From: Bifidobacterium asteroides | GTDB taxonomy: Bacteria; Actinomycetota; Actinomycetes; Actinomycetales; Bifidobacteriaceae | Direction of reading: 5' to 3' | Length of the DNA stretch: 64,000 nucleotides | Assembly: GCF_003202695.1 (NCBI RefSeq) | Contig: NZ_QGLL01000006.1 | Span: 558,001 to 622,000 of the forward strand | Shown: piece after piece, positions 24,413 through 28,842 of the stretch | Layout: each line of letters opens with the position of its first letter | Numbering within the stretch: the first letter of the stretch is position 1 | Notes under the pieces: model-generated | Seen by the model: the letters and a program-made list of their open reading frames with translations, nothing else | Told to the model about the DNA's origin: nothing | Databases searched by the model: none | Position numbers and translations under genes: made by a program

Positions 24413-24441
24413 TTGACACTGCTCCTAGGCCCATCTATGTT
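24413..24441 (+). promoter_or_regulatory. Promoter of the riboswitch-ABC transporter unit
   Basis: A consensus -35 TTGACA (24413-24418) and a -10 TATGTT (24436-24441) are separated by exactly 17 bp. Transcription would start near 24448, directly before the candidate riboswitch. Confidence 0.75.
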
Positions 24442-24447
24442 ATTGCG

Positions 24448-24598
24448 TGGTCGGTAGGTGAAGCTACCGCATGGACAAGGCATGCTGCCGCAAAGTGGTG
24501 GAGACACCCCGCGCAGGTCAACAGTCCCCGTCGGATCAAGGCAGGGACTAATGCAGGGCCAAATACCATGCGAAGCCGAAGCTTGAACGATGACAATG
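24448..24598 (+). promoter_or_regulatory. Candidate M-box (ykoK) magnesium riboswitch
   Basis: The leader carries, in order, the conserved blocks I know from the M-box. They are GGTAG-GTGAAG-CTACC (24453-24468), a GCATG/CATGC stem (24469-24485), CTGCCGC, a GGTG-GAGA-CACC hairpin (24497-24508), GGTCAACAG (24516-24524), and AGTCCC (24523-24528) pairing with GGGACT (24544-24549) around GTCGGATCAAGGC. A downstream helix near AATGCAGGGCC follows. M-box RNAs sense Mg2+ and usually shut off Mg2+ transporter genes. The match is by eye only. No classic T-run terminator follows, so control might act on the ribosome site at 24661-24669. Confidence 0.72.
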
Positions 24599-24674
24599 GT
24601 CGGCCCAGGGCCGATCGCTACGCCGTCTTCGAGGCTGCCGACAGGGATGTTCCGCACCTTGGAGGGAGGCCATC

Positions 24675-26438
24675 GTGAATACTGTCGCACTGCCAGGAAT
24701 GCTCCGTTCTCCACTGAACGACGACCGCAGCCAGGCATCGCGCTCCACCCGCATATGGACGGGCCTGGCCGTAGCCATAGGCGCACTGGTCCTGCTGGGG
24801 GCCCTGGCCTATCTGCTGCCCGCCTTGGGCGCCCCCATCGGCCCCGCCGGCGTTCCCTCGCACGTTTCCACGGACCCGTCCAACCTGCCCTACTACGCGC
24901 TGCGCTCCCTCTTCCGCATGTTTACAGCCCTGATCATCTCCCTGGTCTTCGCCTTCCTCTATGGACTGGCCGCCGCACGCTCACGCCGCCTGGGCGCGGT
25001 GCTCATCCCCCTGCTGGACATTCTGCAGTCGGTGCCCGTCCTGGGCTTCCTGTCAGCCACCATCTCCATCTGGCTGGTCCTCTTCCCCGGGTCCATCATG
25101 GGCGTGGAGGCGGCCTCCATCTTCGCCATCTTCACCAGCCAGGCCTGGAACATGGCCTTCTCCTTCTATAACTCGCTGACCAGCGAGCCTGCCGACCTGG
25201 ACGAGGCGGTAAGGCTGATGCGCCTGACCCGCTGGCAGCGCTTCTGGAAGCTGGACGTACCAAACGCCATGATTCCCCTGCTCTGGAACTGCATGATGAG
25301 CATGGGCGGCGGCTGGTTCTTCCTGACCGCTTCCGAGATGATCTCGGTCAACAACAGGACCCTGGCCCTGCCCGGCATTGGTTCCTTCGTTGAGGAGGCC
25401 ACCGCCGAGCAGGATCTGGGCAAGGTGGGGCTGGCCATCCTGACCATGATCGTTGTGGTCCTATTGATTGACTTCCTGCTCTGGAAGCCATTGACCGCCT
25501 GGGCCGAGAAGTTCCGCTACACCAGCAGCCAGTCCACCGAGCCCCGGCGCAGTCTGGTGCTGACGGTCATTCGCCTGTCCGGAGTCAAGGACCTCTTGAG
25601 TCTGATAGGCCATCCGCTAGCCGACCTGCTGGACCGAATCACCCGCCCTCTGGGCCGCACCGGAGCACGGTGGAGCCGTGACGCCGAGCGCAGGCGAGCA
25701 TGCGACCTTGTCTGGTGGGTCTGCCTGGCCCTGATTGGCTTGTGGGGGCTCTGGCAGCTGGATCGTCTGGTAATCCGCCCGCTGGGCCTGGGCGAGGTCG
25801 GGCATGTCTTCCAGCTGGGCCTGCTGACCTTCCTGCGAGTGCTGATCCTGATGGTGGTCTGCACGATTGTCTGGGTCCCGATAGGCGCCCTGATCGGCAT
25901 GGATCCGCGCATCTCCCGTTACCTGCAGCCCCTGGTGCAGATTCTGGCCTCCTTCCCGGCCAACTTCATCTTCCCCTTCGTCACCATGATCTTCATCGTC
26001 TGGCGGATCGACATCAACTGGGGAAGCATCCTGCTCATGGCCCTGGGCACCCAGTGGTACATCCTCTTCAACGTCATCGCCGGAGCCTCGGCCATTCCCG
26101 ACGACCTGCTGGAGATGTCGCGCAGCCTGGGCCAGAACCGCTGGCAGCGATGGAAGACTCTGATCCTGCCGGCTCTGTTCGGATCCTGGTGCACCGGCGG
26201 CATCACAGCGGCCGGCGGGGCCTGGAACGCCTCCATCGTCTCCGAGGTGGTCTCCTACGGCAAAACCGAGCTGACGGCCAAGGGCCTGGGTGCCTACATC
26301 GCCCAGGTGACCACCACCGGCGACACCCCCCGAATCATCCTGGGGGTGGCCGTCATGAGCATCTTCGTGGTCCTGGCCGACCGGTTCTTCTGGTCTCCCC
26401 TGCAATCACTGGCACAACGGCGCTATTCCCTGACATGA
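24675..26438 (+). CDS. ABC transporter permease, duplicated (COG4986-like, NitT/TauT superfamily)
   Basis: The 587-residue integral membrane protein contains two binding-protein-dependent permease domains in one chain, each with an EAA loop: EPADLDEAVRLMRLTRWQRFWKLD near residue 175 and IPDDLLEMSRSLGQNRWQRWKTL near residue 475. Database names for this family often say anion, nitrate or sulfonate transport, but substrates are mostly unproven. The gene is 3' to a candidate Mg2+ riboswitch and pairs with an ATPase 20 bp downstream, while no substrate-binding protein is encoded. GGAGGGAGG 5 bp before GTG 24675 sets the start. I infer a transport role tied to Mg2+ status. Confidence 0.88.
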   Translation: MNTVALPGMLRSPLNDDRSQASRSTRIWTGLAVAIGALVLLGALAYLLPALGAPIGPAGVPSHVSTDPSNLPYYALRSLFRMFTALIISLVFAFLYGLAAARSRRLGAVLIPLLDILQSVPVLGFLSATISIWLVLFPGSIMGVEAASIFAIFTSQAWNMAFSFYNSLTSEPADLDEAVRLMRLTRWQRFWKLDVPNAMIPLLWNCMMSMGGGWFFLTASEMISVNNRTLALPGIGSFVEEATAEQDLGKVGLAILTMIVVVLLIDFLLWKPLTAWAEKFRYTSSQSTEPRRSLVLTVIRLSGVKDLLSLIGHPLADLLDRITRPLGRTGARWSRDAERRRACDLVWWVCLALIGLWGLWQLDRLVIRPLGLGEVGHVFQLGLLTFLRVLILMVVCTIVWVPIGALIGMDPRISRYLQPLVQILASFPANFIFPFVTMIFIVWRIDINWGSILLMALGTQWYILFNVIAGASAIPDDLLEMSRSLGQNRWQRWKTLILPALFGSWCTGGITAAGGAWNASIVSEVVSYGKTELTAKGLGAYIAQVTTTGDTPRIILGVAVMSIFVVLADRFFWSPLQSLAQRRYSLT

Positions 26439-26458
26439 GAAGTCTGAGAGGTTCGACA

Positions 26459-27811
26459 ATGACCAAGATCAATTCCAACGGGATCATCACGGCCGAGCAC
26501 GTGACCAAAACCTACCAGTCCGACAAGGGTGCAGAGCTGACCGTCCTGGACAACATCGACTTCACCCTGCACGAGGGCGAGGTGGTGGCCATCTTGGGCC
26601 GTTCCGGCGCCGGCAAGTCCACCCTGCTGCGCATCCTGGCCGGCTTGGTCCCAGCCAGCAAGGGCAACGTCGAATACCGGGGCAAGCAGCTGGAAGGACC
26701 CAACCCCGGCGTGGCCCTGGTCTTCCAGAGCTTTGCTCTGATGCCCTGGCTGACCGTCAAAGACAACGTCGAACTGGGCCTGCAGGCCCGCGGCATACCC
26801 AGGAAGGAGCGGGAGAAACTCTCCCTGGCTGCCATCGATGCCATCGGCCTTGACGGCTTTGAAAGCGCCTACCCCAAGGAGCTCTCCGGCGGCATGCGCC
26901 AGCGCGTAGGCATTGCCCGGGCCCTGGTTCTCAAGCCGGATGCCCTCTTCATGGACGAGCCCTTCTCGGCCCTGGACGTGCTGACTGCCGAGAATCTTCG
27001 CCAGGAGGTCCTCAAGGTCTGGTCTGAGGAGGCTGGCAGCGTCAAGTCGGTCCTGATCGTCACCCACAACATCGAGGAGGCCGTGGAGATGGCCGACCGG
27101 GTCCTGGTCCTGGACTCGCATCCCGGCCGGGTTATCGCCAATGTGCCCATCAACCTGGACAGGCCCCGGGACAAGCAGTCCGACCTCTTTCAGTCCTGCG
27201 TGGACTACCTCTACTCCATCCTGACCGGTCAGCGCGACAGCGAGGACATCCGCCGCCGTCTGCAGACCAAGGTGCGCAACCGTCAGGCCGTGCGGGACTC
27301 GGTGCGGGACGAGGACACCGCCGAGCGCAACCTTCCCGACGCCACCCCCGGCGGTCTGGCTGGTCTGGCCGATGTCATGGTCAACCAGCCCAACGGCATG
27401 GACCTGGCCGACCTGGCCGCCAAGCTCTCCTTCGAGGTGGACGACCTCTTCCCCCTGATCGACGCCGGGCTCATGCTGGGCATCTTCCAGGCGGACAACG
27501 GGCACGTCAGGCTGACCGACCAGGGCCGGGTCTGGCACGATGCCGACATCCTGGAGAGCAAGGAGATGTTCTCACGCATGCTGATGAATCATGTTCCGCT
27601 GATCCGCATCATCGACCGGGCTCTGAAGAACAGCGACGACAAGAGTCTGCACGGCTCCCTGATCCTGGACCTGCTACGGGCCCACCACTCGGACAGGGAG
27701 GCCGTCCAGCAGTTCGACACCGCCATCACCTGGGGCCGCTACGGCGAGCTTTTCGACTACGATGCCGACGACGACCGGCTGACCCTGGACCCGGAGAACC
27801 ACGCCGAGTGA
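26459..27811 (+). CDS. ABC transporter ATPase with AAA-associated C-terminal domain (COG4754-like)
   Basis: The 450-residue protein has a NitT/TauT-type ABC ATPase in the first ~250 residues: Walker A GRSGAGKST, Q-loop VFQSFALMPW, signature LSGGMRQRVGIARAL, Walker B ALFMDEPFSALD and the His switch VTHNIEEAVEMADR. The C-terminal ~150 residues form the AAA-associated domain of this subfamily, which looks like a winged-helix regulatory module (LADLAAKLSFEVDDLFPLIDAGLML). It partners with the duplicated permease upstream. GAGAGG before ATG 26459 marks the start. Confidence 0.9.
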   Translation: MTKINSNGIITAEHVTKTYQSDKGAELTVLDNIDFTLHEGEVVAILGRSGAGKSTLLRILAGLVPASKGNVEYRGKQLEGPNPGVALVFQSFALMPWLTVKDNVELGLQARGIPRKEREKLSLAAIDAIGLDGFESAYPKELSGGMRQRVGIARALVLKPDALFMDEPFSALDVLTAENLRQEVLKVWSEEAGSVKSVLIVTHNIEEAVEMADRVLVLDSHPGRVIANVPINLDRPRDKQSDLFQSCVDYLYSILTGQRDSEDIRRRLQTKVRNRQAVRDSVRDEDTAERNLPDATPGGLAGLADVMVNQPNGMDLADLAAKLSFEVDDLFPLIDAGLMLGIFQADNGHVRLTDQGRVWHDADILESKEMFSRMLMNHVPLIRIIDRALKNSDDKSLHGSLILDLLRAHHSDREAVQQFDTAITWGRYGELFDYDADDDRLTLDPENHAE

Positions 27812-28009: not shown

Positions 28010-28471
28010 ATGACTCAACCCCTTACAGAAGCCGCAGAATCTCAGCGACTCGAACCCGATATGGCCACGACTCTGGTCGTAATTCTAGGGGGAGCTCTAG
28101 GCACCGGCTGTCGATACGCCCTGAGCCTGCTGCCGGGCCAGAGCGGTCCACTGCATCCGGGAACCCTCCTGGCCAATTTGATCGCCTGCGCAGGCTACGC
28201 CCTCCTGACCGCCTTCCTGGCCGAGCTGCCAAAAAGCGCACACGCGCGCCGAATTCAGTTGACCAATAAGGGCCTGGGTATGGGCTTGTGCGGTGGGCTA
28301 TCGACCATGTCCACTCTCTCGCTGGAACTGGTCCAGGGTTTCTCTGGCAGTCGAGTCCAGGCAACAGCCACCTACCTGTTCATCTCCTTTGCCGGAGGCC
28401 TGCTGGTCTCCTGGGCCATGGCCACGCTAGGAGCGCATATGGCCGCACATATGCAGGCGGGTTCGCGATGA
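28010..28471 (+). CDS. crcB1: Fluoride channel CrcB/Fluc, first subunit
   Basis: The 153-residue protein has four membrane helices and the Fluc landmarks GGALGTGCRYALSLL, TLLANLIACAGYALL with the pore-helix Asn, and GMGLCGGLSTMSTLSLELV. In most Fluc channels the last motif reads TTFSTF, with two phenylalanines lining the fluoride path; here both are replaced (Met and Leu). An internal ATG at 28061 could give a shorter product. The stop overlaps the next start as ATGA, typical of heterodimeric Fluc pairs with opposite membrane orientation. Confidence 0.92.
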   Translation: MTQPLTEAAESQRLEPDMATTLVVILGGALGTGCRYALSLLPGQSGPLHPGTLLANLIACAGYALLTAFLAELPKSAHARRIQLTNKGLGMGLCGGLSTMSTLSLELVQGFSGSRVQATATYLFISFAGGLLVSWAMATLGAHMAAHMQAGSR

Positions 28472-28842
28472 CCGCCACATTGCTGATCTGCCTGTGCGGC
28501 GGTTTGGGTGCCGGACTGCGCTACTTGTTGGACACCCTGATCAAGGCCCGCTGGCAGGTGGATCTGCCCTTGTCGACCATGATCATCAACCTGCTGGCCG
28601 GTTTGGCTGCGGGACTGGTGGCCGCCCTGGCCGCCTTCCACGGACTGCCCGCCTGGGGACGGATGCTACTGGCCACAGGCCTGCTAGGGGGATTCTCCAC
28701 TTTTTCGACGGCTGTCAACGAGGCGCTGGCCCTGGCTCGGCAGAGACGGAACCTGGCAGCCCTAGGCTATCTGGCAGCATCCATCTTTCTGCCGCCGCTG
28801 CTTACGACCACCAGCTTTCTGATGGCTGGACCAGGCCTTTAG
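28468..28842 (+). CDS. crcB2: Fluoride channel CrcB/Fluc, second subunit
   Basis: This 124-residue, four-helix protein shows GGLGAGLRYLLDTLIK, STMIINLLAGLAAGL and LLATGLLGGFSTFSTAVNEAL. It keeps the first phenylalanine of the Phe box (STF) and lacks the second. With the first subunit it should form an antiparallel heterodimer that lets fluoride leave the cytoplasm. Start is at ATG 28468, inside the last codons of the upstream gene, with AGGCGGG-like sequence before it. Confidence 0.93.
   Translation: MTATLLICLCGGLGAGLRYLLDTLIKARWQVDLPLSTMIINLLAGLAAGLVAALAAFHGLPAWGRMLLATGLLGGFSTFSTAVNEALALARQRRNLAALGYLAASIFLPPLLTTTSFLMAGPGL

Follow-up and report, generated by a model that had tools for sequence, protein, structure and literature searches.

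What does an ATP-binding cassette (ABC) transporter carry when its family is labelled 'anion' and its operon opens with a Mg2+ riboswitch? The question is raised by a 64,000-nucleotide (nt) stretch of Bifidobacterium asteroides DNA (contig NZ_QGLL01000006.1, positions 558,001 to 622,000; hereafter the window), in which the following features stand in order:

24413..24441, + strand: sigma-70-like promoter TTGACA-17-TATGTT, 10 of 12 consensus matches
24443..24601, + strand: M-box (ykoK leader) Mg2+ riboswitch aptamer, RF00380, with covariation among 13 Bifidobacteriaceae sequences
24675..26438, + strand: duplicated ABC permease of 587 amino acids (aa), COG4986-like, GTG start, PF00528 in two stretches
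26459..27811, + strand: ABC ATPase of 450 aa with a C-terminal AAA_assoc_C domain, PF00005 (ABC_tran) and PF09821

We conclude that the transporter is probably an ABC importer that takes up Mg2+ and is repressed by it, with no binding-protein gene alongside, a reading drawn from its regulation, its gene company and its phyletic pattern.

A cmscan search of the whole window gave an RF00380 match on the + strand at 24443-24601 (93.7 bits, E 2.3e-19, gathering score 44), which covers the model in full (model positions 1-169) and bears out the M-box placed at 24448-24600 by an earlier sequence-only reading. It is the only RF00380 M-box found in the 1.93 Mb source genome, and the permease gene starts 73 nt 3' of it. 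The consensus fold of the 13 Bifidobacteriaceae M-boxes kept 96.2% of pair cells and showed change on both sides in 13 of 45 pairs. None of 500 shuffles reached the observed paired cells, both-side-changed cells or covariation score, and one of 500 matched the observed count of pairs with change on both sides; the measure of further pair types carried no signal, 390 of 500 shuffles reaching the observed value. The consensus promoter that the same reading had placed at the leader start was also found. It ends at 24441, so transcription would begin at the first aptamer bases, and its TTGACA is shared without change by the window and nine aligned relatives, mostly very close ones. It is the only such site found in 3.8 kb, with 0.5 expected from shuffles, and hence weak when taken alone. 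On the basis of the RNA family, regulation of the transporter by Mg2+, as claimed earlier, is near certain.

The link between leader and transporter was followed in 121 Bifidobacteriaceae genomes from 16 genera (permease threshold E 1e-20 or better). The M-box occurs in 27 of these genomes and the permease in 40, with both in 2 of the 16 genera. In every one of the 27, the M-box precedes the permease on the same strand, with 74 to 614 nt between it and the start of the permease match; the genomes are related, and this is one lineage's kept arrangement, not 27 independent events. In genome G095 (locus L150, 2399-10064), the same-strand order is M-box, permease, ATPase, an MgtA-type frame of 850 aa and an MgtC-like stretch, and the 850-aa frame exceeds the TIGR01524 MgtA cut-off (657.7 vs 610.75).

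The same leader before homologous transporters, which the sequence-only reading had proposed to look for, was found in other genera and phyla. Among 396 genomes of a wider Actinomycetota set (permease threshold E 1e-60 or better), 34 hold an M-box, 16 the permease and three both (G000, G408, G497); the M-box adjoins the permease in two of the three, in G408 at about 350 nt on the same strand. A scan of named genomes returned at least 580 relatives, and the best 80 were kept, giving 79 distinct loci that are not a random sample and in part repeat the 121 genomes. Across these loci the transporter family spans seven phyla. An Rfam scan of all 79 found the M-box in 17, of which 16 have it upstream on the same strand: six of ten Bifidobacteriaceae, five Nocardia, three Tsukamurella, an Anaerolineae metagenome-assembled genome (MAG; L119) and Citrifermentans bremense (L146). 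The Gardnerella loci L073 and L076 carry the M-box. The Nocardia and Tsukamurella loci read M-box, MgtC, permease, ATPase (with a Pfam check of MgtC for L087 and L098), and the operon of Streptomyces orinoci (L084) is flanked by two M-boxes, one facing away toward a frame with a match to the MgtC C-terminal domain and the other before an Nramp gene. In a tree of 99 permeases, built by a quick method and rooted at its midpoint, the M-box label requires at least five changes among labelled rows and falls in Actinomycetota, Chloroflexota and Thermodesulfobacteriota. This spread fits an old Mg2+ link rather than a Bifidobacterium quirk, other histories being possible given gene exchange.

Known Mg2+ genes also stand beside the transporter. 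Using tblastn with MgtA, MgtC, Nramp, MgtE and CorA queries (E 1e-8; flanks of up to 3.5 kb, shorter at contig ends), we found such a gene beside it in 22 of the 79 loci, and an M-box or a Mg2+ gene in 30. All six P-type ATPases at these loci exceeded the TIGR01524 cut-off (786 to 1069 bits). The order in L086 and L096 is MgtA, MgtC, permease, ATPase; in L080 the ATPase is on the opposite strand. Pseudomonadota contribute just two loci to this count, L137 (Nramp at 33-35% identity) and L149 (MgtE at 30%), which are its weaker entries; the link is seen in three phyla and weakly in a fourth. A Mg2+ gene lies within 1.5 kb at 17 of the 79 loci, compared with 0 of 30 control loci (Fisher p 0.003, a guide only, since the controls represent a single phylum and the cases several, and since related loci cannot count as independent). 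The controls were Actinomycetota loci of SsuC-like permeases, none over the SsuC cut-off, and no M-box was found in the 20 that were scanned. The M-box is thus linked to this transporter family in several genera and three phyla, with known Mg2+ genes alongside. The earlier suggestion that the transporter imports Mg2+ or a Mg2+-linked ligand and that its family is misnamed is strengthened by the MgtC, MgtA, Nramp and MgtE neighbours; Mg2+ as the substrate, the direction of import, the stoichiometry and a translational switch are what we infer. Two-component sensor kinase genes were observed near the permease in Burkholderia (L128, 1290-2603) and Pseudomonas (L141, 1166-2458), and could possibly provide local low-Mg2+ control.

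Could the M-box sense metals broadly and the transporter import another divalent metal, such as Mn2+, Co2+ or Ni2+? Nramp relatives under M-box control often transport Mg2+ (NRMT), and MgtA, MgtC and MgtE are Mg2+ genes. Apart from fluoride switches in two Bifidobacterium loci, the 79 loci gave no other metal riboswitch at or above its gathering score. These results make another metal highly improbable, even though Nramp genes stand near the transporter in Streptomyces and in an Acidimicrobiia MAG and a mycobacterial M-box branch precedes genes labelled manganese transporters, as described in the available part of PMC12810186.

The Mg2+ importer complement of the 121 genomes bears on the substrate as well. 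CorA is present in 96 and Nramp in 78, MgtE is over its cut-off in none (12 weak matches), and MgtA-type ATPases are found in 31 at 1e-100, 21 of them over the cut-off. The genomes without CorA number 25, and 20 of them have MgtA-type matches (17 over the cut-off, three weaker; several of the 20 are incomplete). The remaining five are Gardnerella-type and 99% complete (G069, G075, G091, G103 and G104; loci L021, L023, L025, L027 and L028). For these five the full match lists hold no entry for CorA, MgtE, Nramp or MgtA, and they hold the permease and lack the M-box; their best single P-type stretches reach 210.8-212.5 bits, and the longest stretch pairs sum to about 400, below 610.75. Judged from sequence, the ABC transporter would be their only candidate Mg2+ importer among the families searched, families outside these being possible. 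If it is the sole Mg2+ importer there, steady expression without an M-box would make sense.

The protein pair is of the kind described by the sequence-only reading, a duplicated NitT/TauT-type permease (PF00528 twice) with its ATPase (PF00005, PF09821). The AlphaFold2 model of the permease has two like halves, and its fold match to FbpBC chain A spans both, with further fold matches to CmpB and NrtB. The BPD_transp_1 permease fold together with an ABC ATPase places the system among NitT/TauT-like Type I ABC importers, and the two fused halves with PF09821 place it among COG4986 duplicated-permease transporters with an AAA_assoc_C ATPase, the COG4986 number being the one given in PMC5746004. 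Among the best 80 of the at least 580 relatives, the window permease is 97% identical to those of B. apousia and B. mizhiense. No homology to CorA, MgtE, MgtA or Nramp was found, the permease matching PF00528 only and the ATPase only ABC_tran, AAA_assoc_C and general P-loop models. CorA, MgtE, MgtA/B and the Nramp-related NRMT would share the presumed job of the window transporter and belong to unrelated families. The VIA-align list of fold matches for the permease holds no Mg2+ transporter, which excludes nothing.

A Mg2+-regulated transporter might instead carry another solute that is useful when Mg2+ is scarce: a polyamine or another substitute cation, an anion that chelates Mg2+ (such as citrate or phosphate) and is taken up as a complex, or an anion accompanying Mg2+ uptake. 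We consider this unlikely, even though a Mg2+-linked ligand or polyamine would account for the regulation equally well. The solved permeases nearest in sequence to the window permease are the anion permeases CmpB and NrtB, and among NCBIfam models it best matches those of nitrate, SaoP, taurine and choline permeases, each with a score far under the cut-off (equivalogs ntrB 74.6 vs 209.05, TauC 57.5 vs 342, SsuC 30.7 vs 347). NrtB and CmpB have a single domain each and serve anion transporters that use binding proteins. The window system differs from these nitrate and bicarbonate permeases (8w9m, 9u9z) in its two fused halves, in an operon with no binding-protein gene alongside, and in its M-box leader. 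FbpBC carries iron delivered by a binding protein, and this ferric-ion importer of Thermus thermophilus (9j4r) is 13% identical to the window permease. Organic-solute and anion importers of this ABC class need a solute-binding protein. The window operon encodes none, and at other loci just one of 30 neighbour proteins scanned with Pfam was such a protein, which speaks against another solute, an unlinked one being possible. The one case is Cyanobium L097 (738-3268), in which genes for a solute-binding protein and an MscS-type channel lie directly upstream of the permease. The five genomes without CorA, MgtE, Nramp or MgtA also argue for Mg2+ itself, as do the neighbours, those identified being Mg2+ importers or Mg2+-starvation genes; several recurrent neighbour clusters lack identification.

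M-boxes also precede genes that encode no transporter, a point in favour of another solute. Downstream of 10 of 20 further Actinomycetota M-box loci (L039-L058), we found four MgtE_N+CBS+PRC proteins whose stretch lacks a transporter domain, one MgtE that includes it, two Nramp genes, two isoleucyl-tRNA-synthetase-like genes (L041, L043) and one locus with no match. In Actinomycetota, then, one MgtE and two Nramp genes follow M-boxes, and MgtA and MgtC occur in same-strand runs with the window-type transporter. In L041 and L043 the M-box lies some 750-830 nt before the synthetase-like gene, which resembles the arrangement of the rv1535-type mycobacterial branch in the available part of PMC12810186; the same source gives an M-box for pe20 of Mycobacterium tuberculosis.

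Several observations weigh against Mg2+ import by this transporter, or against its importance. A search among conserved acidic residues for a Mg2+ site singled none out: E524 and D477 have counterparts in CmpB/NrtB, E480 has none, and E145 and E221 lie outside that alignment. The M-box is missing, both over the gathering score and with a lineage model (R1), from 13 of the 40 permease-bearing Bifidobacteriaceae genomes, and these include the five in which the transporter would be the sole importer. In the flanks fetched, 49 of the 79 loci have no Mg2+ link, among them all cyanobacterial and nearly all Burkholderiaceae loci. MgtC itself is, to our knowledge, not known as a transporter, and in G095 the MgtA start and MgtC each match in two frames, so that the genes may be broken. 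The source genome also holds CorA and Nramp, and the ABC transporter therefore need not be its main Mg2+ route. We also considered a degenerate M-box before the permeases that lack one and rejected it: R1 found none in 17 loci (15 distinct, L074 and L075 repeating L021 and L025). R1 gave 157-160 bits on two loci of its own training set and is weak outside the lineage, giving 25-33 bits on M-boxes that score 120-136 with Rfam.

A further point on that side is a reported role in bile stress. The available part of Bottacini et al. 2017 (PMC5746004) describes an M-box in the expressed 5' untranslated region of Bbr_0406-0407 in B. breve UCC2003, notes COG4986 and suggests metal ion homeostasis. The B. 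breve system is like that of the window, an M-box before a COG4986 ABC transporter of the same family, and the window belongs to another Bifidobacterium lineage. Lactococcus expressing Bbr_0406-0407 reportedly survived bile better in the work of Ruiz and colleagues. That study (Ruiz et al. 2012b) is cited for these genes in the bile salt stress response in the accessible text of PMC13368793, and ABC-type and multidrug resistance (MDR) transporters of B. breve are listed under it in that of PMC3872040. The transporter might thus protect against bile by efflux of bile salts or repair of damage, with the M-box reporting only bile-caused Mg2+ loss, which we regard as very unlikely. The permease has an importer fold, and homologues with an M-box or Mg2+ genes occur in Nocardia, Streptomyces and Citrifermentans, which are soil and water genera. 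The nearest relatives of the window come from what we take to be bee-gut species and many homologues from soil or water bacteria, so bile is unlikely as a general substrate. Detergents may strip or chelate divalent cations, and Mg2+ import could then protect as well; bile-caused Mg2+ loss could link the bile and Mg2+ reports.

The link of M-box and COG4986 in B. breve is already published; we met neither the cross-phylum Mg2+ context nor the CorA complement in the literature searched. In that literature PMC5746004 was the only paper found to name COG4986 or to treat an M-box riboswitch in Bifidobacterium. In its available part, the Bbr_0406-0407 report (PMC5746004) concerns one strain and does not compare genera, mention Mg2+-gene neighbours or claim that Mg2+ is imported. 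The essentiality of Bbr_0406-0407 is absent from the main text of the B. breve transposon-directed insertion-site sequencing (TraDIS) paper (PMC5514069). The accessible text of a 2022 review (PMC9276622) gives four prokaryotic Mg2+ transporter classes and holds no word beginning with ABC, and that of PMC3766115 counts 48 M-boxes with no naming of COG4986. Our search, with subscription papers and preprints largely out of reach, turned up, among the titles listed, none that treats the family as importing Mg2+. 'Magnesium ABC transporter' was set aside as a published term; in part of the literature using it, it is a label on mgtA genes.

How might the M-box control the Mg2+ importer? Two hairpins follow the aptamer:

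24598..24616, + strand: hairpin directly after the aptamer, overlapping its 3' end, with no U-run
24622..24670, + strand: hairpin pairing the Shine-Dalgarno sequence GGAGGGAGG (24661-24669), the proposed translational platform

An intrinsic terminator was rejected as the platform: no terminator-like site was found in the leader, and neither hairpin has a U-run after it, for which reason we propose a translational switch. A hairpin hiding the ribosome site would suit this leader better. A precedent for a translational switch, acting together with Rho, is given for the M. tuberculosis M-box in the available part of PMC12810186. Most of the platform pairing is conserved among relatives (92.5% of cells). 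Two results weigh against a platform that hides the Shine-Dalgarno sequence: fold energy is not better than in shuffles (leader z -1.4, platform z -1.3), and the covariation is not significant (243 of 500 shuffles pair equally well). The covariation of the hairpin at 24598-24616 is likewise not above shuffles, and pairing of the aptamer 3' strand with the anti-Shine-Dalgarno strand (-98.9 kcal/mol vs -105.5 for the free fold) is not informative.

We propose that the locus is a Mg2+-starvation operon. With ample Mg2+, the M-box would fold, the downstream hairpin would presumably cover the ribosome-binding site of the permease gene, and the transporter would not be made; at low Mg2+, the leader would refold and allow the permease and ATPase to be made. 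One ATP-driven importer would be assembled from the two fused permease halves and two ATPase copies, and it would take up Mg2+, either as the free ion or within a simple complex, with no dedicated binding protein encoded alongside.

Directly after the ATPase gene, a fluoride riboswitch (RF01734, 27850-27922, + strand, 37.5 bits, gathering 34) precedes crcB (28010-28471), and a second frame nearby (28288-28842) is crcB-like by eye. The window thus has two ion riboswitches in neighbouring operons, and a fluoride switch is likewise present in L071, L083 and L038.

On balance we lean towards COG4986/AAA_assoc_C transporters being an additional class of Mg2+ importers in bacteria, the first to be of ABC type and one that works with no dedicated binding protein. 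If this is true, a widespread family labelled 'anion' or 'nitrate/taurine' would get a new functional name, and bacterial Mg2+ uptake would gain an ATP-driven ABC route. The bile-stress role reported for Bbr_0406-0407 would have a simple explanation, and Mg2+ supply in bifidobacteria and Gardnerella, in which MgtE is not over its cut-off in any of the 121 genomes and CorA is missing in some, would become testable.

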